A stretch of DNA of 33,542 bases, from the NCBI GenBank assembly GCA_026388515.1, contig JAPLJO010000114.1:1-33542 (forward strand), written 5' to 3'. The notes under the pieces were generated by a model, which did no database searches, was not told the DNA's origin, and saw only the letters and a program-made list of their open reading frames with translations. Below, piece after piece: positions 3,159-19,553 of this stretch (the first letter of the stretch is position 1; each line of letters opens with the position of its first letter). Both the position numbers and the translations under genes were made by a program. Source of the DNA: Deltaproteobacteria bacterium (GTDB lineage Bacteria; Desulfobacterota; Syntrophia; Syntrophales; UBA2210).

Positions 3159-3959
3159 TCATTGTGACTGCCCGAAAAGCCCCATGGACTTGATGTTTTT
3201 CATGGTCCGCCTGAACGCCGCCTCATTGTGGGGCTCCAGCGTGATGAGCGGCAGCGAATCCATCGTCTTCAGATACTGGAAGAGTTCTCGGAAAGGAAAT
3301 GTCCCCTCGCCCACGGGCAGATGATCATCGCGGGAGCCGCTATTATCGTGGAGGTGAACCTGCCGAATCGCGGAACCGAGCCTGTCCAGCCACGCCTTGA
3401 GCGGTTCTTCTGAAAAGACATTGAAATGCCCCGTATCAAAGCAGAAAGAGAGATTCGGCGAGGCCGGCAGGGCTTCGATGAGCCGTGCGATGTAGTGAGG
3501 GCCCCCTTCGTACACATTTTCCAGGGCGATGACCGTATTCATCTCTTCCGCGAGCGTAAGGAAATACGCCCAGGTATCACGGCTGTTCTCGAGCCACGCC
3601 TCCTCGTTCGACACATAATACCGCTCATCATATGAGGGATGGCAGACCACGCTCAACGGCTTGTAGTACGGGATGAGGTCAAAGACCTGCTTCAGCCGGT
3701 CCTTCGTCACCTCCCTCACTTTTCTGTCCAGGGCGCCCGGCCTAAGGTCAAAGAACGGGGCATGAAACGTCACGTTCACCCCTGCACCGGAAAGTATACG
3801 GGCCGTCTCGATGAAATCGCCAGTGGTAAACCGGTCGAGTACGAAACAGTTGAAGCCGATTTCGGGATTCAGTTTTTCGCGGATGACGAGGGGAAGATGC
3901 TCATCAATGAGCATCTGGTAGGGCATGTTCACCTGGACTTTCCGCATCACGTCACGCAT
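3159..3959 (-). CDS. Sugar phosphate isomerase/epimerase-like TIM-barrel protein (AP endonuclease 2 superfamily)
   Basis: [84 protein letters not shown]: metal-binding motifs of the xylose isomerase-like barrel. Confidence 0.85.
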
Positions 3960-4050: not shown

Positions 4051-4080
4051 TTGACAGGGGCGGAACGAAAAGAATATAGT
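4051..4080 (+). promoter_or_regulatory. Predicted sigma70-type promoter of the aromatic supra-operon
   Basis: TTGACA (4051-4056), 18 nt spacer, TATAGT (4075-4080), 29 nt upstream of the leader-peptide ATG. Confidence 0.7.
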
Positions 4081-4109
4081 GCATCACTTTTTGAAAAAGG
4101 GAGTTTTCG

Positions 4110-4196
4110 ATGGGCAGTACCACTCACGCAACCTACTTTTATTTTAGCTACTATTATAGCGTGGGTTCGGTGTGCCCGTCGCCCGTGAGTAGCTAA
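4110..4196 (+). CDS. Tyr/Phe-rich leader peptide (attenuator): MGSTTHATYFYFSYYYSVGSVCPSPVSS
   Basis: AAGGGAG Shine-Dalgarno 6 nt upstream of ATG at 4110; codons TAC TTT TAT TTT AGC TAC TAT TAT give YFYFSYYY; followed by alternative hairpins and a terminator before the DAHP synthase gene. Confidence 0.85.
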   Translation: MGSTTHATYFYFSYYYSVGSVCPSPVSS

Positions 4197-4267
4197 CTCT
4201 TTCAAAACTACGAAACGCAGGCCATGGGTAAACCGAACGGTGTACACCATGGCTTTTCTGTTTCTGA

Positions 4268-4307
4268 GCCATGGCGAACGAAAGGTCCCATGGCTTTTTT
4301 ATTTTTT
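4268..4307 (+). terminator. Attenuator terminator upstream of DAHP synthase
   Basis: AGCCATGG-cgaacgaaaggtc-CCATGGCT followed by TTTTTATTTTTT. Confidence 0.85.
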
Positions 4308-4366
4308 AGGAATGCAGCGCAACGCAGAAGATGGACTTTTTACGAAGCCATCTAAGGAGGTGTACG

Positions 4367-5395
4367 GTGATTATTGTAATGAAACGAAGTGCGACGGACC
4401 AACAGATCGATGCAGTCGTCCAGTGGATTGAATCGCTCGGCTACAAGGTTCACCTGTCGCGTGGCACTGAGCGTACTATTATCGGCGCTGTGGGCGATCA
4501 GCGCGGCAAGGAGAATCTCCGTCTCGTCGAGTCGCTCCCGGGGGTGGAAAAAACAGTACCCATCCTGAAGCCCTACAAGCTCGCGAGCCGCGAATCAAAA
4601 GAAGGCAATACCGTCATCAGGGTAAAAGACGTTCAAATAGGCGGCGGCACGTTCGTCGTCATGGCCGGGCCCTGCGCCGTGGAGAGCGACGAGCAGATGA
4701 TGGAGAGCGCCTATGTGGTAAAAAAGGGCGGCGCCGATATCCTGAGAGGCGGCGCCTTCAAGCCGAGAACGTCGCCGTACAGCTTCCAGGGAATGGAAGA
4801 GGAAGGACTCAAGCTCCTGAAACGGGCGCGTGAAAAGTCGGGATTGCCCATCATCACCGAGGTCGTCAATCCCGCCGACGTGGACCTTGTGGAGGAATAC
4901 GCAGACGTGTTCCAGATAGGCGCGAGAAACATCCAGAACTTCGCCCTTCTCAAGGAAGTCGGCAGGGCGAAGAAACCGGTGCTCATCAAGCGGGGCATGA
5001 TGACGACCATCGAGGAACTCCTCATGTCCGCAGAGTATATTCTTTCCTCAGGCAACAGCGAGGTCATCCTCTGCGAACGGGGTATCAGGACCTTCGAGAC
5101 TGCGACGCGAAACACCCTCGACATCAGCGCCGTGCCCGTCCTTAAGGAACTGACCCACCTGCCTGTCATCGTGGATCCGAGCCACGCCTCGGGCAACTGG
5201 AAATACGTGCGGCCGCTGGCCAAATGCGCGCTGGCCGTGGGTGCCGACGGCATCATGATCGAAGTGCACCCGGATCCTGAAAAGGCCTTCTCCGATGGAA
5301 AGCAGTCGCTCAAGCCGGAAAAGTTCTATGAGCTTATGGAAGAGCTGCGGCTCATGGAGAAGTTCATCATGAAAGAGACGGTGGTGGTGCAATGA
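4367..5395 (+). CDS. aroF: 3-deoxy-7-phosphoheptulonate (DAHP) synthase, type I-beta with N-terminal regulatory ferredoxin-like domain
   Basis: [80 protein letters not shown]. The ORF is open from 4331, but the likely start is GTG 4367 behind AAGGAGG. Confidence 0.95.
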
Positions 5396-6486
5396 TTAAA
5401 ATCAAAGTGAACCTCGACCGGTACGCCCCCGCGTCCTACGATATCTGCATCGGGAGCGGCATTCTTGACCGCGTCGGTCTTCTCATCGGGAACGGAACTC
5501 CCGCAACGCGCTACATCATTGTGAGCGATACGACAGTCGCCTCGCTCCACGGTGAAAAACTGAAGGTACTCCTCGGCGGCATGGGATATGACGTTCACCT
5601 GGTCACCTTTCCGCCGGGCGAACGGTCAAAAACGCTTGGCACCGCACTTGCCGTCATCTCCTCGCTCCTCGAACTCGGGGCCGACCGCGCTTCGATGCTC
5701 ATCGCACTGGGCGGAGGAGTGACGGGAGATCTCGTGGCGTTCATCGCCTCCGTCTACATGCGGTCCGTGCCGTATGTCCACATACCGACGACGCTCATGG
5801 CGCAGGTGGACAGCAGTATCGGGGGGAAGACGGGAATCGATCTTCCCGAGGGGAAAAATCTCCTGGGCACCTTTTACCAGCCCAGGGGCATCTTCATCGA
5901 TCTTGATCTCCTCTCCACTCTTCCCGACGAAGAATTCAGAAACGGGCTCGCCGAAGTCCTCAAGTACGGCATCATCGAAGACCTTCGCCTTTTCGACCTT
6001 CTCGAAGGAAGCGCCGGCGAGGTGATGGCACGGAACCGGGCGATTCTCGAAACCATCGTCACGTCGTCCTGCACCATCAAGAAAGGGATTGTCGAAATCG
6101 ATGAGCGGGATACCGGTGTGAGAAGGGTGCTCAACTTCGGCCACACCGTGGGTCATGCCATCGAGGCGGAATCGGGCTACACCATATCCCACGGCAATGC
6201 CGTGGCGGCGGGAATGGTTGCCGCGGTGCGCATATCAGAAAAAGGAGGACACCTCCTCCCACAGGACCGGGAGCGCATCGAGGGGCTTATCAGGACCTAC
6301 GGACTTCTTGACCGCATACCGGCTTCGATTTCGACAGATAGCCTGATGGCACGAATGACAAAGGACAAGAAAAAGAAGGGCGATGCGATTCACTTCGTCC
6401 TCCTCAGGAAACCGGGGATACCTTTCATTCATGCCTCGGTGAAGCAACGCATAATCCGTGACACCCTGGAGGAGATGCACGCATGA
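5392..6486 (+). CDS. aroB: 3-dehydroquinate synthase
   Basis: [103 protein letters not shown]. Confidence 0.97.
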
Positions 6487-7565
6487 AGAATTCAGAGCTC
6501 ACACGGCTGCGTCACAGGATACGGAAGACCGATGAAATGCTTGTCGAAGTATTGAACGAGAGGTCGCGCCTTTCCATTGATATCGGCAAAATCAAGAAGC
6601 GCCGCCACATGGATGTGTACGATCCCGCCAAGGAAATGGCCGTCTACCGCCACCTTGACGAAATGAATGCCGGACCTCTTCCGCCCCGGGAGCTGCACCA
6701 CATCTTCAGGGAAATCATTTCTTCATCGCGCGCGCTCCAGGCCCCGGTATCGGTTGCCTGCCTGGGGCCCGAGGCGTCATTCTCCCACCTCGCCGCCCGG
6801 CATCATTTCGGGGAGGCGGCGCAGTATGTCTCGCTTCCCACCATCTCAGATGTCTTCGACCGGGTGGAGCGCAAGCAGGTCGCCTGCGGCGTAGTACCCA
6901 TCGAAAACTCCCTCGAAGGTTCCGTCGCCATGACGCTTGACCACCTTCACACGACGCCGCTCACCATCAGGGCCGAAATCCTGCTCCCCATCCAGCACTG
7001 CCTGCTCTCGGCGGCGGCGAAAATCAGGCCCCTCAGGCAAATCTACTCACATCCCCAGGCGCTTGCCCAGTGCCAGCAATGGCTCACCACTCACCTGCCC
7101 CGCTGCGACCGTCACGCCGTGGAAAGTACCGCAGTAGCGGTCCAGAAGGTTGCCGGCGACCGCGAAAGTGCCGCCATAGGAAGCAGGGAGGCCGCTACCC
7201 TTTACGGGCTGAATGTTCTTTTCGAAGGGATTGAAGACTACCACACGAATGTGACCCGTTTCATCGTCATCGGCGAAGGACTCACCGCGCGCACGGGGAA
7301 CGACAAGACTTCCATCCTTTTCGGGACCCGCCACGAGCCGGGTGCCCTCTTTCACGCGCTGGAACCGTTCGCGAAGAAAAAAATCAATCTCGTCAGGATT
7401 GAATCGCATCCCATAAAGGGGACCATGTGGGAGTATCTCTTTTTCGCGGACTGCACCGGAAGCATTGCCGATCGCACGGTCCGGTCGTGCCTCGCGGCAT
7501 TGAAGAAAAAAACGACTTTTTTCAAGATTCTTGGTTCATACCCCGCAGGAGAAATCCCGGCATGA
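6483..7565 (+). CDS. pheA: Bifunctional chorismate mutase / prephenate dehydratase with ACT domain
   Basis: N-terminal AroQ-type chorismate mutase (LRHRIRKTDEMLVEVLNERSRLSIDIGKIKK); PDT motifs LGPEASFSHLAA, GVVPIENSLEGSV, IYSHPQALAQCQQWL, GLNVLFEGIEDYHTNVTRFIVIG; ACT region GALFHALEPFAKKKINLVRIESHPIKGTMWEYLFFAD. Confidence 0.95.
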   Translation: MKNSELTRLRHRIRKTDEMLVEVLNERSRLSIDIGKIKKRRHMDVYDPAKEMAVYRHLDEMNAGPLPPRELHHIFREIISSSRALQAPVSVACLGPEASFSHLAARHHFGEAAQYVSLPTISDVFDRVERKQVACGVVPIENSLEGSVAMTLDHLHTTPLTIRAEILLPIQHCLLSAAAKIRPLRQIYSHPQALAQCQQWLTTHLPRCDRHAVESTAVAVQKVAGDRESAAIGSREAATLYGLNVLFEGIEDYHTNVTRFIVIGEGLTARTGNDKTSILFGTRHEPGALFHALEPFAKKKINLVRIESHPIKGTMWEYLFFADCTGSIADRTVRSCLAALKKKTTFFKILGSYPAGEIPA

Positions 7566-8248
7566 TATGCCTTTCGATATTGAAACGGACACACGAAGAG
7601 GCCCTCGCACTCATGGAGCGATATACCGGCCTCTGCGATATTGTTGAACTGAGGCTCGATTCCATGGTGAATCCCGACCTGAAGAAATTGTGCAGCTCCA
7701 GGAAGTGTCCCGTCATTGCGACGAACAGGAAAAAGGGTGAGGGGGGGTACTTCGAGGGTACGGAGCGCGCGTGTGTTGCACTTCTGTGCGAAGCCGTGGA
7801 ACGCGGTGTGGATTTCGTGGATATGGAACTGCGTACCGGCACGGAGGGGGCGCAGATGATTGCGGATGCGCGCGCACGTACAAAGAAGCGGACACAACTC
7901 ATCGTCTCGTACCATGATGTCGAGGGAACCCCGTCTCTCAGACGGCTTCAAGCGATTGCGTCGCGGTGCAGGGCGCGTGGCGCCGATATGGTAAAAATCG
8001 TCACCCGCGCGAGGGTGATTGAGGACACAATATCAATACTGCAGCTTCTCCATCACGCCCGGGCAACGGAGACTGCAATGACGGCGTTCTGCATGGGTCC
8101 GGAAGGGCGATTGAGCAGGATTGCGGCGCCCTTCTTCGGCTCCCGTATCAGCTACGTCGCCGCCGGCGAGGCCGATGATACGGCACCGGGACAACTCACC
8201 ATCAAAGAAATGAACACCGTCATGGAGATACTAAGGCGACGAACATGA
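7562..8248 (+). CDS. aroD: 3-dehydroquinate dehydratase, type I
   Basis: MICLSILKRTHEEAL...CDIVELRLDSM...PVIATNRKKGEGG, VDFVDMELR, LIVSYHDVEGTP, ADMVKIVT, TAFCMGPEGRLSRIAAPFFGSRISYVAAGEADDTAPGQLTI. ATGA overlap with pheA supports start 7562 rather than 7427. Confidence 0.93.
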   Translation: MICLSILKRTHEEALALMERYTGLCDIVELRLDSMVNPDLKKLCSSRKCPVIATNRKKGEGGYFEGTERACVALLCEAVERGVDFVDMELRTGTEGAQMIADARARTKKRTQLIVSYHDVEGTPSLRRLQAIASRCRARGADMVKIVTRARVIEDTISILQLLHHARATETAMTAFCMGPEGRLSRIAAPFFGSRISYVAAGEADDTAPGQLTIKEMNTVMEILRRRT

Positions 8249-9054
8249 CACGCGACCTCTATGCACTTTTTGGCAACCCTGTCTCGCAGAGCCTTTCACC
8301 GCTCATGATGAACACGGCATTCGCGAAGCTCAATATGCCGGCCCGGTACGCGGCGTTCCAGGTGGATCATGCAGCCGACATCAGAAAACGCATGGATACC
8401 CGTTCGCTCCGCATACGGGGAGCGAGCGTTACCATACCCCACAAGGTGGCAGTGATGGACTGCCTTGACGGTCTGACGGAAAGTGCGGGGGCCATCGGCG
8501 CCGTCAATACCATCATCCGGGCGGATGACAGGCTCACCGGCGACAACACGGACTGGATAGGCATCATCCGGGCTCTATCGGAGCATATGGAGATTGCGGG
8601 AAGCACGTTTCTTATCGTGGGGGCGGGCGGCACCGCGAGAGCGGCGCTGTACGGCATTATCTCGAAAGGCGGCATCCCCTCCGTCACCAGCCGTTCCGCC
8701 GTAAAGGGCGAAGCACTGGCGAAGGAGTTCGGGTGCGACTTTCTCCACCCCGACGACCTGCCCGGCGTCATTGCAGATTGCCTCATCAATACGACACCGC
8801 TCGGCATGAAGGGATACGGCGATGCATCACCCGTTCCGTCGGGAATACTTGAGCGCTTTGCTTCGGTGATGGATGTCATCTACAATCCCCCGGTCACGAA
8901 GCTTCTCAGCGATGCAGCGGCGCGCGGATGCACCACGATTTCGGGTGTCTCCATGTTCGTCAGCCAGGGCGCTGAGCAGCTGAGGCAATGGACCGGCATG
9001 ACGCCCCCTGAAGAACTGATGAAACAGGTGGTCATGGAAAAACTCACAATATGA
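8245..9054 (+). CDS. aroE: Shikimate dehydrogenase
   Basis: LYALFGNPVSQSLSPLMMNTAF, GASVTIPHKVAVMDCLD, GAIGAVNTII, GDNTDWIGI, LIVGAGGTARAALYGI, LINTTPLGM. Confidence 0.96.
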   Translation: MTRDLYALFGNPVSQSLSPLMMNTAFAKLNMPARYAAFQVDHAADIRKRMDTRSLRIRGASVTIPHKVAVMDCLDGLTESAGAIGAVNTIIRADDRLTGDNTDWIGIIRALSEHMEIAGSTFLIVGAGGTARAALYGIISKGGIPSVTSRSAVKGEALAKEFGCDFLHPDDLPGVIADCLINTTPLGMKGYGDASPVPSGILERFASVMDVIYNPPVTKLLSDAAARGCTTISGVSMFVSQGAEQLRQWTGMTPPEELMKQVVMEKLTI

Positions 9055-10313
9055 TTACGATACAGCCACTGCACAACCTCGACGCCACGGTACGCGCACC
9101 CGGCTCGAAGAGCCTGACACAGCGCGCGCTCGTGATTGCCTCGCTCGCCGCGGGGACCTCGACGATTACCCATCCGCTCATCGCGGACGACACGCGCTGC
9201 CTCATCGAAGCACTTCGCCTGCTGGGGGCGCACATTGATGAAGATGAGAACTCGCTCCGCGTTACCGGCACGGCGGGCCGGATACAAAATCCCGGCACCA
9301 GGCTTCTTCTCGACAATAACGGCACGGCGCTCCGTTTCCTGGTATCGGTTGCCACCCTCGGCGTGGGACGTTATATTATCGACGGGAGTGACCGGCTGAG
9401 GGAACGCCCCGTGAAGCCTCTTCTCGATGCCCTCGCGGTACTCGGTGTCGAGAGCCGGACCGTCGAGAACTGCGGCTGCCCGCCGGTGGTGATACAGGGG
9501 CGGGGAAGACTGGAAGGCGGCACCGTTACGTTCAGGAATTCCGAAAGCAGCCAGTACATCTCGTCGCTGCTCATTGCCGCGCCCTGTGCCGCGGGCCCCA
9601 TCGAAATCAGGGTCGAGGGGGATATGGTGTCGAAGCCTTACATTGATATGACCATGGATGTAATGAAACGGTTCGGCGTGGAAGCAGCCGCGCATGAAGG
9701 TGCATATCGTGTGAACGCACCACAGCACTACCTTCCCTGTGAGTTCGCCGTTGAGGGTGATATTTCGAGCGCCTCATATTTCTTTCTTGCCGCGGCCCTC
9801 TGCCGGGGAAAGGTACGGGTTGAAAATCTGAACGCCGGCACCATCCAGGGAGACCGGCGGGTTCTTGATATTTTTCAGCGTCTCGGCTGCCGTGTTTCGA
9901 AGGGAGACGGCTGGATTGAGGTCAATGGAGATGTGACCTCCGCGGGCGATTTTCTTTTTGACATGGCCGACATACCGGACATGGTTCCCACCGTCGCCGT
10001 CCTCTCGGCATTCCGTCGGGGACGGACGGTCATTTCAAAGGTTCCCCATCTCCGGGTGAAGGAGAGCGACCGCATTGCCGCCCTTGTCACCGAACTCAAC
10101 CGGATCGGCGTCAGTGCGGATGAACGTACCGACGGCCTTGTCATCGAAGGAGGTTCTCCCCACGGAGCGGTCATTGAGACCTATGGGGATCACCGCATCG
10201 CCATGAGCTTCGCCGCGGCAGGTCTGGCCATGGAAGGCATCAGCATTAAAGATGAAGAGTGCGTCAGAAAATCCTTCCCGGATTTCTGGAAAACACTCGG
10301 GGAGCTCTCTTGA
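9051..10313 (+). CDS. aroA: 3-phosphoshikimate 1-carboxyvinyltransferase (EPSP synthase)
   Basis: APGSKSLTQRALVIASLAAG, LDNNGTALRFLVSVA, DGSDRLRERPVKPLLDAL, SSQYISSLLIAAP, EGDISSASYFFLAAA, LRVKESDRIAAL, YGDHRIAMSFAAAGL. Confidence 0.97.
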   Translation: MITIQPLHNLDATVRAPGSKSLTQRALVIASLAAGTSTITHPLIADDTRCLIEALRLLGAHIDEDENSLRVTGTAGRIQNPGTRLLLDNNGTALRFLVSVATLGVGRYIIDGSDRLRERPVKPLLDALAVLGVESRTVENCGCPPVVIQGRGRLEGGTVTFRNSESSQYISSLLIAAPCAAGPIEIRVEGDMVSKPYIDMTMDVMKRFGVEAAAHEGAYRVNAPQHYLPCEFAVEGDISSASYFFLAAALCRGKVRVENLNAGTIQGDRRVLDIFQRLGCRVSKGDGWIEVNGDVTSAGDFLFDMADIPDMVPTVAVLSAFRRGRTVISKVPHLRVKESDRIAALVTELNRIGVSADERTDGLVIEGGSPHGAVIETYGDHRIAMSFAAAGLAMEGISIKDEECVRKSFPDFWKTLGELS

Positions 10314-10864
10314 TGAAGCATATTGTTCTTATCGGATACCGGGGCACCGGGAAATCCACGGTGGGAAGAAACCTGGCGGCGAAACTTGACCTTCCCTTCG
10401 TCGATACCGATGACCTCATCCGGCAGGAGACCGGCAAAACAGTGCGTGAACTCGTAGAAGAAGGAGGCTGGCCGCTCTTCCGTTTCCACGAAAAACAGGT
10501 TATACAGAGACTCGCGGAGAATGCCGCACCCGGCACTGTAATCGCCTCGGGGGGCGGCGTCTTCGATGACGGTGAATGCAGAGGTCTCATGCAGTCGAAA
10601 GGAGTATTCGTCTGGCTCTATGCCGACCTTTACACCATCATTGAGAGAATCGCGGGTGACACGGAAGGAGCGGACCAGAGGCCACCGCTCGATGGCGCCG
10701 ACGCTGTGCGCGAGGCGGCTGCAGTTCTCGAACGAAGAATCCCCGTCTATCGGAGTCTTGCCGATATTACGGTCAACACGGAGGGTAAAACGATCGGGGA
10801 GATAGTCTCAGAAATACACATCTGTCTCGCCATGAGGGAATGCCAATGTCAGGAAACACCATAG
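10313..10864 (+). CDS. aroK: Shikimate kinase
   Basis: MKHIVLIGYRGTGKSTVGRNLAAKLDLPFVDTDDLIRQETGKTVRELVEEGGWPLFRFHEKQVI...VIASGGGVFDD; Walker A and DTD motif. Start 10313 overlaps the aroA stop (TGATG). Confidence 0.95.
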   Translation: MKHIVLIGYRGTGKSTVGRNLAAKLDLPFVDTDDLIRQETGKTVRELVEEGGWPLFRFHEKQVIQRLAENAAPGTVIASGGGVFDDGECRGLMQSKGVFVWLYADLYTIIERIAGDTEGADQRPPLDGADAVREAAAVLERRIPVYRSLADITVNTEGKTIGEIVSEIHICLAMRECQCQETP

Positions 10865-11928
10865 GCGCCATATTCAAGCTCACCACGTGGGGCGAATCAC
10901 ATGGTCCCGCCGTCGGGGCAGTGATAGACGGCTGCCCGCCGGGGATTTTCCTCACTGAGGCGGAGATCCAGGCCGAACTTGACAGGCGGCGGCCGGGCAC
11001 GCTCTCCTCCGGCTCGCCCAGAGAAGAAGAGGACACCGTGGAAATTCTCTCCGGCACATTCAAAGGTGTCACCACTGGAACGCCGATTGCACTCATGATA
11101 CGAAACCGGGACGCGAAGAGCTCCGACTATGAAGACATGAAAAACATCTTCAGGCCCGGACACGGGGATTACACCTATTTCAGGAAGTACGGCATGCGTG
11201 ATCACCGTGGCGGCGGGCGCGCGTCGGGACGCGAGACGGCGGCCCGCGTGGCGGCGGGGGCCATCGCACGGAAAGTGATTGCGGAAAGCGGCATTCACGT
11301 CATCGCCTATACGAAGGAACTAGGCGGCATTGCGGCGGAGACACTTGATCTCGCGGAGAAAGAAAAAAACCTCCTCCTCTGCCCCGATCCGAAGGCAGTA
11401 CCCCTCATGGAGGCAAAACTCAAGGAAGCGCGGGAAAAAGGCGACACGCTGGGGGGCATCGTGGAGATTGTGGTGACGGGATGCCCGGCGGGACTGGGGG
11501 AACCTGTTTTTGATAAGATGGATGCGGATTTTGCAAAAGCCCTCATGAGCATCGGCACCGTCAAGGGAGTTGAAATCGGCGCCGGTTTTGATGCCTCGCG
11601 CATGACGGGCTCCACATGCAACGATCCCCTCACCTCCGAGGGGTTTCTCACCAACAACGCGGGCGGAATACTTGCAGGCATCACGAACGGCGCGGACATT
11701 ATCCTGCGTGCCGCCTGCAAACCGATACCATCCATCTCGCTGCCGCAGCAGACCATGGACACCGAGGGAAACCCTGCCACCATCAGCATTTCAGGCCGGC
11801 ACGACATATGCGTCATTCCACGCATCATCCCCGTCTGCGAGGCAATGGTGTGCCTGGTACTCGCAGATCATCTCCTTCGCCAGCGGGCACTTAATAAAAA
11901 TATTGACAGCAGCGAAAAACCCTGTTAG
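10846..11928 (+). CDS. aroC: Chorismate synthase
   Basis: MSGNTIGAIFKLTTWGESHGPAVGAVIDGCPPG, RRPGTLSSGSPREEEDTVEILSGTFKGVTTGTPIALMIRN, RPGHGDYTYFRKYGMRDHRGGGRASGRETAARVAAGAIA, GITNGADIILRAACKPIPSI. ORF opens at 10840. Confidence 0.97.
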   Translation: MSGNTIGAIFKLTTWGESHGPAVGAVIDGCPPGIFLTEAEIQAELDRRRPGTLSSGSPREEEDTVEILSGTFKGVTTGTPIALMIRNRDAKSSDYEDMKNIFRPGHGDYTYFRKYGMRDHRGGGRASGRETAARVAAGAIARKVIAESGIHVIAYTKELGGIAAETLDLAEKEKNLLLCPDPKAVPLMEAKLKEAREKGDTLGGIVEIVVTGCPAGLGEPVFDKMDADFAKALMSIGTVKGVEIGAGFDASRMTGSTCNDPLTSEGFLTNNAGGILAGITNGADIILRAACKPIPSISLPQQTMDTEGNPATISISGRHDICVIPRIIPVCEAMVCLVLADHLLRQRALNKNIDSSEKPC

Positions 11929-11931
11929 TCG
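11903..11931 (+). promoter_or_regulatory. Candidate internal promoter for the trp half of the operon
   Basis: TTGACA (11903-11908) inside the last codons of aroC, 17 nt spacer, then TAGTCG (weak -10), ~31 nt upstream of the Trp leader ATG. Confidence 0.35.
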
Positions 11932-11961
11932 GGTGCAGCATACAGCAACGGGAACGTCATA

Positions 11962-12036
11962 ATGATTTCACAATTCAGCATAAAGAATAACTGGTGGTGG
12001 TATCCGGACATACTGAAGGGGTTCGTCCACCGCTGA
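11962..12036 (+). CDS. trpL: Trp leader peptide (attenuator): MISQFSIKNNWWWYPDILKGFVHR
   Basis: Short ORF with three consecutive TGG codons, located between aroC and trpE and followed by two competing hairpins. Confidence 0.88.
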   Translation: MISQFSIKNNWWWYPDILKGFVHR

Positions 12037-12054
12037 TCTTTACCGTCAATGCAT

Positions 12055-12094
12055 AAAAGGCCGTGGGGAATCTCCTGAATCCCCACGGCCTTTT
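12055..12094 (+). promoter_or_regulatory. Trp attenuator 1:2 hairpin
   Basis: AAAAGGCCGTGGGGA-atctcctgaa-TCCCCACGGCCTTTT, 15-bp perfect stem. Confidence 0.85.
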
Positions 12095-12123
12095 ATATTT
12101 GTACCATCATAGGGATTAACATG

Positions 12124-12153
12124 AAAAGGCCGTGAGTCATCACGGCCTTTTTT
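12124..12153 (+). terminator. Trp attenuator 3:4 terminator hairpin
   Basis: AAAAGGCCGTGA-gtca-TCACGGCCTTTTTT, perfect 12-bp stem with T-run directly upstream of trpE. Confidence 0.88.
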
Positions 12154-12171
12154 ATTGGCGAAAGGAGCACT

Positions 12172-13650
12172 ATGTACTACCCGTCACTCAATGAATTTAA
12201 AACTCTTGCCACGCCGGGACGCATGGTTCCCGTCTTCAGGGAAATCCTCGCCGACATGGAGACACCCGTCTCGGCCTTTCAGAAACTCGCAGGAAAACAA
12301 TATGCCTTTCTCCTCGAAAGCGTGGAAGGCGGGGAGAAATGGGGCCGCTATACATTTCTCGGCGCGGACCCGAGAATGGTCCTCACGGTGCGGGGAACGA
12401 AGGTGCTCATACGGGAACGGGGCAGGACCCGATCGTACGACCACGACGGGCAGCCGCTCGCGTTCCTGAAAGAAATCATCGAGCGGCACACTCCTGTCCA
12501 GGTGTCCGGACTTCCCCGGTTCTACGGCGGCGCCGTCGGATATTTCGGTTACGATATGGTGAGATATTTCGAGCGGCTTCCCGCCCATGCGACAGGCTCG
12601 CCGGTGACCGATGACGCAGTATTTCTCGTTACCGACACACTCATCATCTTCGATAACGTGCGACACACCATCAAGGTGGTCGCATGTGCATTTGTAAATG
12701 ACGGTGACGATACGGAGAGCCTGTACCATGATGCCACCCGGAGCATCGACGGCATGGCACGTCTTCTCATGCGTCGGAAGGCCATCGCGGGACGCCGTGA
12801 GGAGACTCCGAGGCTCCCGTCTTTTACGGCCAATATGTCCCGCTGGGAATATACCAATATCGTCGCACAGGCAAAAGAGTACATTGCCGCCGGCGATATC
12901 ATCCAGGTGGTGCTTTCCCAGCGTTTCACGGGAACATCCCCCGCGCCTGCGCTCGATCTCTACCGTGCGCTCCGCTTCATCAATCCATCGCCCTACATGT
13001 TCTTTCTGAAACTGGGCCGCCTCACCCTCATCGGCTCGTCACCGGAGGTCATGGTGCGGCTCGAAGAGGGAGTTGTTGAGTTGAGACCCATTGCCGGCAC
13101 ACGACGACGCGGCGGGAGCGAACAGGAAGACAGGAAACTCGCCTGCGACCTTCTGCAGGACCCCAAGGAACGGGCCGAGCACGTCATGCTCGTCGATCTG
13201 GGAAGAAACGATCTGGGAAGAATAGCCCGCACCGGCTCCGTGCAGGTAACGCAACTCATGGCAGTGGAGCGCTACTCCCACGTGATGCATCTCGTCTCCA
13301 CCATCAGGGCGGAACTCGCCGCCGGGAAGGACTTCACCGATGTCATCAGGGCAACATTCCCGGCAGGCACGCTCTCGGGAGCGCCCAAGATCAGGGCCAT
13401 GGAAATCATCGACGAGCTGGAGCCGTCCGGGAGGGGGCCCTACGGCGGCGCCGTGGGATACATCGGATATTCGGGCAACATGGATCTGTGCATCACCATA
13501 AGAACCATGGTGCTCGAACGCGGCATCATACACATCCAGAGCGGGGCGGGCATCGTCGCCGACTCCGATCCCGACTCGGAGTACGAAGAAACGAAGAGCA
13601 AGGCACAGGGACTCATACAGGCCGTCCAGATGGCGGCATCAGGCCTGTAA
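12172..13650 (+). CDS. trpE: Anthranilate synthase component I
   Basis: GAVGYFGYDMVRYFERL, AKEYIAAGDIIQVVLSQRF, PSPYMFFLKLG, IGSSPEVMVRLEEGVVELRPIAGTRRRG, HVMLVDLGRNDLGRIARTGSVQV, TFPAGTLSGAPKIRAMEIIDELEP, GGAVGYIGYSGNMDLCITIRTM. Confidence 0.97.
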   Translation: MYYPSLNEFKTLATPGRMVPVFREILADMETPVSAFQKLAGKQYAFLLESVEGGEKWGRYTFLGADPRMVLTVRGTKVLIRERGRTRSYDHDGQPLAFLKEIIERHTPVQVSGLPRFYGGAVGYFGYDMVRYFERLPAHATGSPVTDDAVFLVTDTLIIFDNVRHTIKVVACAFVNDGDDTESLYHDATRSIDGMARLLMRRKAIAGRREETPRLPSFTANMSRWEYTNIVAQAKEYIAAGDIIQVVLSQRFTGTSPAPALDLYRALRFINPSPYMFFLKLGRLTLIGSSPEVMVRLEEGVVELRPIAGTRRRGGSEQEDRKLACDLLQDPKERAEHVMLVDLGRNDLGRIARTGSVQVTQLMAVERYSHVMHLVSTIRAELAAGKDFTDVIRATFPAGTLSGAPKIRAMEIIDELEPSGRGPYGGAVGYIGYSGNMDLCITIRTMVLERGIIHIQSGAGIVADSDPDSEYEETKSKAQGLIQAVQMAASGL

Positions 13651-13675
13651 TACTACCTACAGGGAGAAGATTCAC

Positions 13676-14260
13676 ATGATTCTCATGATAGACAATTACG
13701 ATTCCTTCACCTTCAACCTTGTCCAGTACATTGAACAACTCGGAAGGGAAGTCACGGTGGAACGGAACGACACCATTACCACTGACGACATCGAATCGAT
13801 GCAGCCGGAGGCAATCGTCATTTCTCCGGGTCCCGGCGGTCCCGCCGGCGCAGGCATTACCGTCGATGTAATCAGGCGTTTTTACGAACAGACCCCCATT
13901 ATGGGAATATGCCTCGGCCACCAGGCCATCGGATACAGTTTCGGCGCCGAAGTAGTCCGGGCAGGCTCCCTCATGCACGGGAAAACGTCGGAAATCCTCA
14001 ACGACGGGAGAACCATCTTCAAGGGACTGCCCTCACCTTTTGTTGCAGGCCGCTACCATTCTCTTCTTCTTAAAAGGGATACCATACCGGATTGCCTCGA
14101 AATCAGCGCCGAGACCGGCGAGGGTGAAGTCATGGGGGTCAGGCACCGCCGTTATCCCGTCGAGGGAATCCAGTTTCATCCCGAATCGATACTGACGCCA
14201 AACGGAAAGCGCATCATCAGGAATTTTCTGGAAATCGCCGATCTCTATCGTCATTCATGA
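13676..14260 (+). CDS. trpG: Anthranilate synthase component II (glutamine amidotransferase)
   Basis: [82 protein letters not shown]. Confidence 0.96.
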
Positions 14261-14277
14261 ATGAAAGGAGTGTCACC

Positions 14278-15288
14278 ATGATCAGGGAAGCCATCGAAAA
14301 GTTCGTGCAACGCATCAACCTCACGGAACAGGAAATGATACGCGTCATGGAGGAAATCATGACGGGAGAGGCGACATCGTCGCAGATTGCCGCGTTCATC
14401 ACCGCGCTCCGAATGAAGGGGGAAACAGTGGACGAGGTCACGGGGGCGGCGCGTGTCATGCGCCGGAAAGCAGTCCGGATCGACGCCCGCTCATCCGTCG
14501 TGGTGGATACCTGCGGTACCGGCGGCGACGGCATGCACACCTTCAATATCTCCACCACCACCGCCTTTGTCGTGGCCGCGGCGGGCATCACCGTCGCCAA
14601 GCACGGGAACCGCGCCGTGTCGAGTGGTTGCGGGAGCGCCGATGTGCTCGAGGCACTCGGCGTGAATATCGACGCACCGCCGGAAGTCGTCGAGGAATGC
14701 GTGCAGACCGCCGGCATCGGATTTCTCTTCGCACCCCGCCTTCACGGCGCCATGAAGTACGCCGTCACACCCCGGAAAGAAATCGGCATCAGGACCATAT
14801 TCAACATGCTGGGGCCTCTCACCAACCCGGCGGGCGCCACGTCACAGCTTCTCGGCGTCTACGACGCGACACTCACCGAGGCATTCGCCGGTGTCCTGAA
14901 GAATCTCGGCACGCGCCGGGCCTTTGTCGTGCACGGTTTTGACGGCCTCGACGAAGCGACCGTCACGGCGGAGACGCGCGTCTCGGAACTGAAAGACGGC
15001 ATTATCAGCACCTATAACATCGACCCGGTACGTTTCTTCGGCGACCGCTGCCACATCGACGATTTAAGAGGCGGCGACGCCTCGGTGAACGCCGAGATTC
15101 TCACGCGTGTGCTTGCCGGACACGACGGGGCATGCAGAAAAGTCGTGCTTCTCAACGCCGCGCTCGCCATCATGGCGGCGGAGAAAACCGGCACCATGGA
15201 GGAAGGCCTCGCCATTGCGGGAGAATGCATCGAAAGCGGTGCCGCTCTTAAGAAGCTGAAGGTGCTGATAGACATGAGTAACGGATGA
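14278..15288 (+). CDS. trpD: Anthranilate phosphoribosyltransferase
   Basis: [99 protein letters not shown] opens at 14257 (overlapping trpG); AAAGGAG favours ATG 14278. Confidence 0.96.
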
Positions 15289-15297
15289 AAATACACC

Positions 15298-16086
15298 ATG
15301 ATACTGGATCGTATACTTACACATAAAAAGAACGAGGTGGAAGAACTGAAGCGTTCCACAGGACGTGCGTCTCTTGAACGGGCCGTCCGGGATCTTCCCC
15401 CAACGCGAGATTTCGCCGTAGCGCTCCGAAAGCGCGAGTGTGCCGTCATTGCTGAGATCAAGAGTCGTTCCCCATCGGCGGGCACCATCCTTGACAACTT
15501 CGATCACCGGACCATCGCCGCGATCTACGAATCACACGGCGCCGCCGCCATATCGGTCATCACGGACAGGCATTTTTTCGGCGGTGACCGCTCCTTTCTT
15601 GCCGATATACGAAGCACCGTCTCACTGCCCCTGCTCCGCAAGGATTTCATCATCGATGACTGCCAGATCATAGAGACGCGTGCACTCGGAGCCGATGCCG
15701 TGCTGCTCATCGCGATGATACTTGATGCACGCACGCTTCGAAGCTTCATCATGCGTGCGGAGTCGCTTGGAATGACGCCGCTCGTTGAAGTGCATTCCAA
15801 TGAGGACGTAAAGAGAGCGCTCGCTGCCGGCGCCCGTGTGATAGGCATCAATAACCGTGACCTGCAAACCTTCAAAACCGATATCACGGTAAGCGCGAAC
15901 CTCGTGCCTTTCATACCGGAAGATATTCTTGTGGTGAGTGAAAGCGGGATTCGCACACGAAATGACATCGACACGCTCATGGCAGTGGGTATCCGGGCAT
16001 TTCTCGTGGGCGAGGCACTTATGAAGGCTGCTGATAGAGGCGGGACGCTCCGCACGCTCCTCGGAAGAGACGACTACAATGCCTGA
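15298..16086 (+). CDS. trpC: Indole-3-glycerol phosphate synthase
   Basis: MILDRILTHKKNEVEELK, VIAEIKSRSPSAGTI, AAAISVITDRHFFGG, LPLLRKDFIIDDCQIIETRALGADAVLLIAMIL, VIGINNRDLQTFKTD, VVSESGI. Confidence 0.96.
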   Translation: MILDRILTHKKNEVEELKRSTGRASLERAVRDLPPTRDFAVALRKRECAVIAEIKSRSPSAGTILDNFDHRTIAAIYESHGAAAISVITDRHFFGGDRSFLADIRSTVSLPLLRKDFIIDDCQIIETRALGADAVLLIAMILDARTLRSFIMRAESLGMTPLVEVHSNEDVKRALAAGARVIGINNRDLQTFKTDITVSANLVPFIPEDILVVSESGIRTRNDIDTLMAVGIRAFLVGEALMKAADRGGTLRTLLGRDDYNA

Positions 16087-16759
16087 AGTAAAAATATGCG
16101 GAATCACCAGGATTGAAGATGCCCTCGCCGCTGTGGAATGCGGCGCCGATGCCCTGGGTTTCGTCTTTTACCGCAAGAGCCCCCGGTGTATTCATCCCGA
16201 AGCCGCCAGGCGCATCATAGATGCTCTACCCCGCACCGTTTCCTCAGTAGGGGTGTTCGTCAACGAAGACATAGGGATCGTTACCAGCACGATGGAGTTC
16301 TGCGGGCTTTCCATGATTCAGCTTCACGGAAATGAATCGCCGGATTATTCGAGGATGTTTCCTCTCTCGAGGATAATCAAGGCTTTTTCACCGTCTTCCG
16401 AAGAAGATCTTGATGCCGCCCTTCGCTATCCATGCCGTGCCGTACTCATCGACGCCAGTGTCCCGGGACAATACGGCGGCACCGGGAAAAGGGCCGACTG
16501 GGAACTCGCGGCGAGACTGCGGGAAGCGCGCCCCCTTATAATCTCCGGCGGGCTCTCTTCAGAGAACATCATCGAGGCGATCCGGGTACTATCGCCTGAC
16601 GCGGTGGACGCAAGCAGCGGTGTCGAGATCACACCCGGCCTGAAAGATATCGATAGAATGGAGACATTCATTAAAGCCGTTCGAACCGCCGAGGAGTCCG
16701 GTACTGTTCGGCGGCACACAATTTTCACCATCACTGCATCCGGAGAGACACAACAATGA
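16079..16759 (+). CDS. trpF: Phosphoribosylanthranilate isomerase
   Basis: [127 protein letters not shown]. Confidence 0.95.
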
Positions 16760-17955
16760 AAAAAAGACTGCCTGATAAAAAAGGACATTTCGGGATTTTC
16801 GGAGGACGGTACGTTGCGGAAACACTCATTCCGGCCCTCGTGGAGCTGGAGGCATCATATAAGAGTGCGAAAAAAGACCGGGCATTCACGCGGGAGCTGG
16901 CCCATTATTCCCGCGATTATGCGGGGCGAGAGACACCTTTGTACTTCGCGTCACGCATGACGAAGGCGCTTGGCGGCGCGAGAATCTACCTGAAGCGGGA
17001 AGACCTCTGCCACACGGGCTCCCACAAAATTAACAATACCCTCGGCCAGGCGCTCCTGGCACGACGCATGGGGAAAAACCGCGTGATCGCCGAGACGGGC
17101 GCCGGCCAGCACGGTGTCGCCACCGCCACCGTCGCGGCCCTTTTCGGCATGACCTGTCGCGTGTTCATGGGAACCGAGGATGTGGCGCGTCAGTCATCCA
17201 ACGTGCTCCGGATGCGGATGCTGGGCGCGGAAGTGGTTCCCGTGGAGAGTGGCACGAGGACCCTCAAGGACGCCATGAATGAAGCGATGCGCCACTGGGT
17301 ATCCCATGTGAGAGACACCTTTTATGTCATCGGCACGACGGCAGGTCCGCACCCCTACCCTGCCATGGTAAGAGATTTCCAGAGCGTGATCGGTCGGGAG
17401 ACGAAACGCCAGATCATGCAACAGGAAGGCAGCCTTCCCGATTTTCTTATCGCCTGTATCGGCGGCGGCAGCAACGCCATGGGGCTTTTTCATCCTTTTC
17501 TTCATTACCGCGGTGTGCATATGATCGGCGTCGAAGCGGCGGGCGCGGGAATCCATACGGGCATGCATGCAGCGAGCATCACCGCTGGGAAGTTAGGCGT
17601 CCTTCATGGCAACAAAACCTTCCTTCTCCAGGATGATGACGGGCAGATCCAGGAAACTCACTCCATCGCGGCGGGACTGGATTACCCCGGCGTCGGGCCG
17701 GAACATGCCTACCTCCATGACACGGGCCGCGCGGACTACGTCGCTGTCGATGACGATGAGGCGGTCAAGGCGGCGCTCTTCCTTTCACGACACGAGGGAA
17801 TCATCCCGGCCATGGAAAGCGCCCACGCCCTTGCCTATGTCATGAAACTGGCGCCCCGGCTTCGCAAAGACAAAATCATCATCGTCAATCTCTCGGGAAG
17901 AGGTGACAAGGACGCGGGCATTATCGCCGCGAGAATGAAGGAGCGGGTTGCATGA
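16756..17955 (+). CDS. trpB: Tryptophan synthase beta subunit
   Basis: [130 protein letters not shown] (PLP lysine in HTGSHKINN). Confidence 0.97.
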
Positions 17956-18755
17956 AACGGCTGGAAACGACATTCTTCAAACTTCGTGAACGGAACGAAA
18001 AAGCGCTTGTGGTGTATCTGACCGCCGGCGATCCGAACCTCACCACCACCCTTGACATACTGCGAGTGCTCTCCGAGAGCGGCGTGGATATCATCGAGGT
18101 CGGCGTTCCCTTTTCCGACCCCACGGCCGACGGGCCCGTCATCCAGGCCGCGTCACAGAGGTCTCTCCGGAACGGAACGACACTTTCCGCCGTCCTTGAT
18201 ATGATTACCTCATTCAGAAAAATCTCTGAAACCCCCGTGGTGCTCTTCGGATACTACAACCCCGTCTTCCGCTACGGCAACGCCCGCTTCGCAAGAAACG
18301 CCTCAAACGCGGGCGTGGACGGCGTTCTCATCGTTGACCTTCCGCCGGAAGAATCACAGGAACTAAGACAATATACCGACCGCGCGGGCATCGATTTCAT
18401 CTCGCTCATCGCCCCCACGACACCCACCGGGAGGATCCGGACGATTGCACGCGCCTCTTCCGGCTTCCTCTACTATATCTCCATCACGGGCATCACGGGA
18501 ACGGCAAAACCAGATTCTTCCTCGGTCAAGAAGGAGGTGAAACGGATACGGGAGGTCACCAACCTGCCCGTGGTCGTCGGCTTCGGCATATCCACCGCCG
18601 GACAGGCGGCGGATCTTTCACGGCATGCCGACGGCATCGTCATCGGAAGCGCCCTTGTCCGCCTCGTGGGCACGCATGGCACGAGCAGGAAGTTGATGCA
18701 GATCGTCGGCTCTTATGTTAAGGAAATCAAAAATTCCATGAGAATGAAGCGGTAG
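17952..18755 (+). CDS. trpA: Tryptophan synthase alpha subunit
   Basis: [110 protein letters not shown]. Confidence 0.96.
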
Positions 18756-18779
18756 CGCCGGTACGAAAGATCCACGGGG

Positions 18780-19553
18780 ATGGGTGATATGAAACACGTG
18801 ACAATCGGCATCATAGGAGGCACGGGCGGCATCGGCAGGTGGTTCGCCCGCTTTTTCGAGGAACAGGGCTTCACCGTGCATGTCGCGGGGAGAAAATCGG
18901 GAATGGACATACCGGCAATGGCAAAAGCTTGTTCCGTCGTCATCGTGAGCGTCCCCATCGGCGCGACCATCGGGGTAATTAAAAAAATCGGCCCATACAT
19001 GAAGCGCAACTCTCTTCTCATGGACCTCACCTCCCTCAAGGAAGAACCGGTAAAGGCGATGCTTGCATCCTCCCGCTCAGAGGTCACCGGGCTCCATCCT
19101 CTCTTCGGCCCTTCCGTGCGCTCCCTGAAAAATCAGAATATCGTGCTCTGCCCCGCACGCGGCAAACATTGGCTCACCTGGCTCAGAGCAATTCTCGAAA
19201 AGAAAGGTGCGCACATCGTTGAAACAACGCCTGAGGACCATGACGAGATGATGGCCGTTGTCCAGGGACTTACCCACCTCAATACCATGACGATGGGTAT
19301 CATGGTCCGTGAATCCGGTATCGACCGGGCGGGACTGGAGAAGTTCTCAACGCCCACCTTCCGGAAGAAACTCAAACTCATCGACAGGGTATTTTCCCGC
19401 CCGGGGCTCTACGCGGAAATCATCACGGGGAATCCGGCACTGCGGCCGCTGGCGCGTCGCTATGCGCACATTGCCGCACAGCTGAAAAAAGTGACGCTGC
19501 AAAAGGACAGGGATTTACTCGTCGCGCTCATCACCGGACGCCGCCGCCCGTGA
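18780..19553 (+). CDS. tyrA: Prephenate dehydrogenase
   Basis: IGIIGGTGGIGRWFARFFEEQGFTVHVAGR, VVIVSVPIGAT, LLMDLTSLKEEPVKAML, GLHPLFGPSVRSLKNQNIVLCPARG, DEMMAVVQGLTHLNTM. No fused chorismate mutase domain. Start may be 18789. Confidence 0.92.
   Translation: MGDMKHVTIGIIGGTGGIGRWFARFFEEQGFTVHVAGRKSGMDIPAMAKACSVVIVSVPIGATIGVIKKIGPYMKRNSLLMDLTSLKEEPVKAMLASSRSEVTGLHPLFGPSVRSLKNQNIVLCPARGKHWLTWLRAILEKKGAHIVETTPEDHDEMMAVVQGLTHLNTMTMGIMVRESGIDRAGLEKFSTPTFRKKLKLIDRVFSRPGLYAEIITGNPALRPLARRYAHIAAQLKKVTLQKDRDLLVALITGRRRP

Follow-up and report, generated by a model that had tools for sequence, protein, structure and literature searches.

A candidate leader-peptide attenuator with tandem terminators at the head of an aromatic supra-operon in Syntrophales

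Attenuation by a leader ribosome is an established mechanism, and in Corynebacterium a Phe/Tyr leader is already known to precede DAHP synthase. In the pheL and trpL leaders of Escherichia coli, four RNA segments serve one terminator and the control codons lie within segment 1. In Corynebacterium glutamicum, according to the accessible part of a review, the Phe-Tyr-Phe leader aroR precedes the aroF (DAHP synthase) operon (Neshat et al. 2014, reviewed in PMC11802643) and a separate Trp leader, trpL, precedes trpEGDCFBA; the same text has aroR responding to limitation of Phe, not of Tyr (PMC11802643). Two adjacent Rho-independent terminators occur in one leader in ermK of Bacillus licheniformis (PMC4335068). 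A broad survey of premature terminators covers leader peptides in Proteobacteria, Actinobacteria and Firmicutes and does not mention Geobacter or aroG (PMC2965389), nor does a reconstruction of delta-proteobacterial regulation mention an aromatic leader (PMC545781). Our literature search, incomplete for subscription papers, found no report of an aromatic leader in Deltaproteobacteria/Desulfobacterota and no description of a double-terminator chain in a biosynthetic operon.

We analyzed a stretch of 33,542 nucleotides (the window; contig JAPLJO010000114.1, assembly GCA_026388515.1, order Syntrophales) in which a leader precedes an aromatic supra-operon. Judging from the sequence, it is probable (roughly 0.8) that this leader is a cis-acting, ribosome-mediated transcription attenuator of the supra-operon and that a Trp-codon attenuator of the same build gates trpE-tyrA. 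With pheL and trpL, the leader shares control codons in a leader peptide, a mutually exclusive antiterminator and terminator, and the charged-tRNA logic. It differs in that its control codons (4134-4157) precede segment 1 (4164-4183) and in that its chain of pairings would throw two terminators; the four-segment PheL/TrpL layout, with one terminator, a 1:2 pause hairpin and codons in segment 1, was not found in the window leader. A preliminary description of the locus had proposed PheL-type attenuation by charged tRNAs: the attenuation is supported by the conserved leader, segments and terminators, but the layout is not that of PheL/TrpL.

The C. glutamicum pair, aroR and trpL, follows the same two-level logic as the window's two leaders in a different phylum; for aroR, the accessible part of the review reports neither a double terminator nor a three-amino-acid run (PMC11802643). 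ermK is likewise a leader-peptide attenuator with two terminators (PMC4335068), a likeness drawn from its description only; two terminators and exclusive pairings were found in the window leader. However, the ermK attenuator serves a resistance gene and its induction comes from ribosomes stalled by macrolides, whereas the window leader has amino-acid control codons.

The leader upstream of aroF and its relatives

The features at the head of the supra-operon are as follows.

4051-4080, forward strand: promoter-like site TTGACA-18-TATAGT, 11 of 12 consensus bases
4097-4103, forward strand: leader ribosome-binding site AAGGGAG
4110-4196, forward strand: leader peptide ORF MGSTTHATYFYFSYYYSVGSVCPSPVSS, 28 amino acids, conserved in Syntrophales loci
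4134-4157, forward strand: control codons YFYFSYYY, 5 Tyr and 2 Phe in 8 residues
4367-5395, forward strand: aroF, type Ib DAHP synthase, GTG start, Shine-Dalgarno sequence AAGGAGG at 4354-4360

Inspection of the sequence placed the promoter, the Shine-Dalgarno sequence, the 28-residue ORF with its YFYFSYYY run and the hairpins where the preliminary description had put them. The leader RNA (4087-4330) folded at -85.9 kcal/mol, with a z of -4.95 against shuffles. The start of aroF is most likely the GTG at 4367 behind AAGGAGG, rather than the ATG at 4331. Between the second terminator and the aroF ribosome-binding site lies a copy of an interspersed repeat (4309-4352; GATGGACTTTTTACGAAGCCATC hairpin), which has approximately 30 matches in the genome and was not seen at the corresponding place in relatives. 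Elsewhere in the window, a TPP riboswitch was identified on the reverse strand at 532-622 (Rfam RF00059, 75.2 bits).

Related genomes, in which the preliminary description had suggested seeking Tyr/Phe codon runs upstream of the DAHP synthase, have them: a Y/F/W-rich leader precedes the gene in 107 of the 113 usable Syntrophales loci. Similarly, the leader ORF and hairpins, on whose presence in close relatives the proposal had been staked, are kept there. Within the window's family, each of the 14 full aroF loci (7 genera, counting the window's own locus) has an ORF of the same build, and terminators lie behind most leaders. Outside the order, 24 of 60 sampled DAHP synthase loci of other Desulfobacterota have such a leader, the Geobacteraceae being among the named ones. 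At least 7 aromatic residues in any 10 occurred in 108 of 130 real upstream regions of relatives versus 0.15% of 3,900 dinucleotide shuffles, so the run is not due to chance.

Tyr and Phe codons were present in 107/107 Syntrophales leaders and Trp codons in 100/107, so the sensor would generally read all three aromatic amino acids. Trp codons are missing from the window's leader and from that of its nearest relative; the sensing of Tyr and Phe alone, as originally suggested, thus fits the window but not most of the order. In 105/107 leaders, a TTGAC -35 element occurred in the 120 nt before the leader start (0.115 expected), at a median of 61 nt from the start codon, while a stricter promoter expression matched only 44/107. 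Close to their 3′ end, 50 of the 107 leader ORFs (e.g., L024, L030 and L184) carry an AGGAGG, which encodes Arg-Arg, resembles a Shine-Dalgarno sequence and might delay the ribosome as it passes segment 1. Leader ORFs rich in aromatic residues, each with a single hairpin, also precede DAHP synthase in records labelled Clostridia, Anaerolineae and Calditrichota (L068, L069 and L096); leader peptides in these taxa would fall outside the usual groups.

This conservation bears on the class of regulator. Antiterminator and terminator folds such as those of the leader RNA are also typical of a T-box, a riboswitch or a protein-bound leader, in which the ORF would be incidental. However, the ORF is conserved in both composition and position. 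In Rfam searches, the window leader matched no family even at E values up to 1, and 16 related loci gave no leader-family match, yielding only chance-like unrelated matches apart from tRNA genes. Together with the conserved ORF, these null results count against such a leader, which we regard as very improbable and as the least likely of the alternatives considered.

Two terminators and a chain of pairings

Between the control codons and aroF, the RNA contains the following elements, with segment 0 at the start of the ORF. ON and OFF designate the pairings predicted to permit and to prevent transcription into aroF.

4107-4117, forward strand: segment 0, start-codon region (ATGGGCA), complementary to segment 1
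4164-4183, forward strand: segment 1 (GGTTCGGTGTGCCCGTCGCC)
4220-4238, forward strand: segment 2, pairs with 1 (ON) or 3 (OFF)
4242-4254, forward strand: segment 3, pairs with 2 (OFF) or 4 (ON)
4266-4279, forward strand: segment 4, pairs with 3 (ON) or 5 (OFF)
4287-4296, forward strand: segment 5, pairs with 4 (OFF)
4220-4254, forward strand: terminator T1 (2:3), followed by TTTTCTGTTT
4266-4296, forward strand: terminator T2 (4:5), followed by a T-rich run to approximately 4307

The leader, its terminator hairpins and the mutually exclusive complementarities are present in the sequence and conserved. Hairpins and a terminator before DAHP synthase had been described previously; they are present, but the terminators are two in tandem, not one. 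When stem-loops with a T-run behind them were sought by folding, at least two terminator hairpins were found behind 107 of 125 leaders and a single one behind the other 18. A simple terminator scan of the window listed neither 4220-4254 nor 4266-4296, probably because their loops and stem irregularities exceed its limits, and it did not list the hairpins of the trp leader; the hairpins were therefore sought by folding. That the terminators belong to the upstream neighbor was ruled out, as that gene (3159-3959) runs in the opposite direction.

Ile-rich leader peptides (e.g., IIIISIIII) were observed upstream of ilvB in the window's family (L279-L293). These also point to leader-peptide attenuation by sequence, but exactly one terminator was present in 11/11 of those inspected, so these genomes do not double their terminators as a rule. 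Upstream of hisG, no His-rich leader was detected in the family at the threshold used.

The pairings were evaluated by comparing the energies of real and swapped partners in 101 distinct leaders. The z values were -7.4 for 1:2, -18.1 for 2:3, -8.2 for 3:4 and -22.1 for 4:5, versus 0.1, -2.9 and -2.8 for the control pairings 1:4, 2:4 and 2:5, respectively; the swap and shuffle controls leave some shared ancestry in, such that these figures represent support and not probabilities. In an alignment of 49 rows (A2), the OFF helices were paired in 93.9% of cells with strong covariation (0/500 shuffles). The ON helices were paired in 93.1% of cells, versus 27-41% when slid, with only modest covariation beyond shuffles because their segments are also used by the OFF helices. 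Segments 0 and 1 paired with a mean of -12.6 kcal/mol, versus -6.8 kcal/mol for control windows (104 leaders).

T1 and T2 share a palindromic CCATGG core, and duplication of a terminator with this core could in part account for the 3:4 complementarity. An ordinary attenuator might thus regulate T1 alone (1:2 versus 2:3), with T2 as a redundant back-up that resembles T1 through duplication, much as one terminator suffices for the Ile leaders and only one was detected in some carriers of the aromatic leader. Yet an unregulated T2 would end transcription even with T1 open. Moreover, with the core held identical, real 3:4 partners still beat swaps (34/41 wins; 6/5000 permutations as low). The complementarity reaches past the core in 40/41 loci in a locus-specific manner, altered cores (L019 and L172) are altered on both sides, and the Trp leader, of different sequence, has the same 3:4 match. 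Regulation of T1 alone is accordingly unlikely in our estimation.

Ribosome position and proposed mechanism

The effect of ribosome position was evaluated by folding the free RNA, using footprint sizes assumed from general knowledge and considering energies only, with kinetics ignored. With the ribosome at Tyr14 (free RNA from approximately 4164), the minimum free energy structure at every later length contained 1:2 and then 3:4, and T1 and T2 were absent. With the ribosome on the stop codon (free RNA from approximately 4209), T1 and T2 formed in folds of the window sequence. With no ribosome, the full-leader fold paired the start-codon region with segment 1, and both terminators were formed.

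We infer termination, stalling, tRNA sensing and the order of folding from these elements, as follows. A shortage of charged Tyr and Phe tRNAs, joined in most relatives by Trp tRNAs, would stall the ribosome on the aromatic codons of the leader and leave segment 1 free. Segment 1 would then pair with 2, releasing 3 for 4, such that neither T1 nor T2 forms and transcription proceeds into aroF. When these tRNAs are charged, the ribosome would reach the stop codon and cover segment 1; 2:3 and then 4:5 would form, and transcription would stop at T1 or, after escape, at T2. Absent translation, segment 0 could pair with 1 and both terminators would again form, a predicted default off state. The aromatic genes would thus probably be read only when charged aromatic tRNAs are short, in a layout that recurs across one order and beyond.

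Conservation of the leader, pairing segments and terminators strongly supports ribosome-mediated attenuation by charged aromatic tRNAs. Every sequence-level defining feature of such attenuators appears to be present: a short ORF with a run of pathway-product codons, above shuffles and in nearly all of the Syntrophales loci counted above (107/113); a Rho-independent terminator between this ORF and the first structural gene, of which fold, T-run and conservation indicate two (T1 and T2); and a conserved antiterminator that excludes the terminator, as evidenced by the 1:2 and 3:4 complementarities and the stepwise folds.

The tail VCPSLRR of the peptide is well conserved in Syntrophales, which would suit TnaC-like arrest by the nascent peptide, with the free aromatic amino acid sensed via a conserved VCP(S)LRR. 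However, the octamer GTCTGCCC in segment 1 is kept, with small variants, in three different reading frames: it encodes Val-Cys-Pro in Syntrophales (frame 0, 99 loci), Pro-Ser-Ala in Geobacteraceae (frame 2) and, in the third frame, LP(V) in G168. Moreover, the V and C of VCP use nearly one codon each (GTC in 68/75 and TGC in 71/75, respectively). What is conserved is therefore the RNA pairing and not the peptide; the reading frames led us to reject the VCP tail as an arrest motif, and we consider peptide arrest highly improbable.

Within ribosome-mediated attenuation, the specific form that we favor, at slightly better than even odds, is a chain of six segments (0:1, 2:3 and 4:5 versus 1:2 and 3:4). 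This chain would be set by one ribosome, throw two terminators together, be off without translation and mostly read Tyr, Phe and Trp, having been kept across Desulfobacterota while the reading frame of the segment-1 peptide changed freely. If this is correct, biosynthetic attenuators would gain a new architecture, one that occurs twice in series within a single supra-operon. The known reach of leader-peptide attenuation would then include the entry step of aromatic synthesis, throughout a phylum that has received little study. A single leader would integrate three end products, and one ribosome decision would be relayed to two terminators in a natural cascade, the relay being the 3:4 pairing. 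It also suggests how Trp could be handled separately in an operon that contains all three branches, to Phe, Trp and Tyr, as well as the common pathway.

The supra-operon and its Trp leader

The gene order is aroF aroB pheA aroD aroE aroA aroK aroC trpE trpG trpD trpC trpF trpB trpA tyrA (4367-19553). Its features downstream of aroF are as follows.

5392-11928, forward strand: aroB, pheA (chorismate mutase/prephenate dehydratase), aroD, aroE, aroA, aroK, aroC
11903-11931, forward strand: trp-leader promoter-like site TTGACA-17-TAGTCG, found by eye and overlapping the end of aroC
11962-12036, forward strand: second leader peptide MISQFSIKNNWWWYPDILKGFVHR, with WWWY, between aroC and trpE
12054-12095, forward strand: trp-leader terminator T1
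12124-12150, forward strand: trp-leader terminator T2
12172-19553, forward strand: trpE, trpG, trpD, trpC, trpF, trpB, trpA, tyrA

The placing of the whole common pathway with pheA, trp and tyrA under one leader, as initially described, is incomplete: a second leader with Trp codons, a double terminator and a promoter-like site precedes trpE. In MISQFSIKNNWWWYPDILKGFVHR, the Trp control codons are at 11992-12000 and the Tyr codon at 12001-12003. The trp leader region (within 11962-12156) folded with a z of -9.2 and contained two terminators; the 5′ arm of its T2, AAAAGGCCGTG, is the exact complement of the 3′ arm of its T1, CACGGCCTTTT. In most relatives, trpE likewise lies behind a WWW leader, together with tandem terminators, 3:4 segments that match and a promoter-like site of the form TTGACA-17-TA. 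A strict consensus scan did not find the window's site at 11903-11931; its spacing and TG-extended -10 pattern are the same in relatives. With its own double terminator before trpE, the trp leader would provide a second attenuator in series in one operon, and the trp block may also start transcription on its own.

In the window (17952-19553) and in relatives, tyrA ends the trp block, which places it behind the Trp attenuator. Tyr supply may thus depend on Trp-gated readthrough. In two relatives (G001 and G004), aroF-aroC is followed directly by tyrA, without a trpE match.
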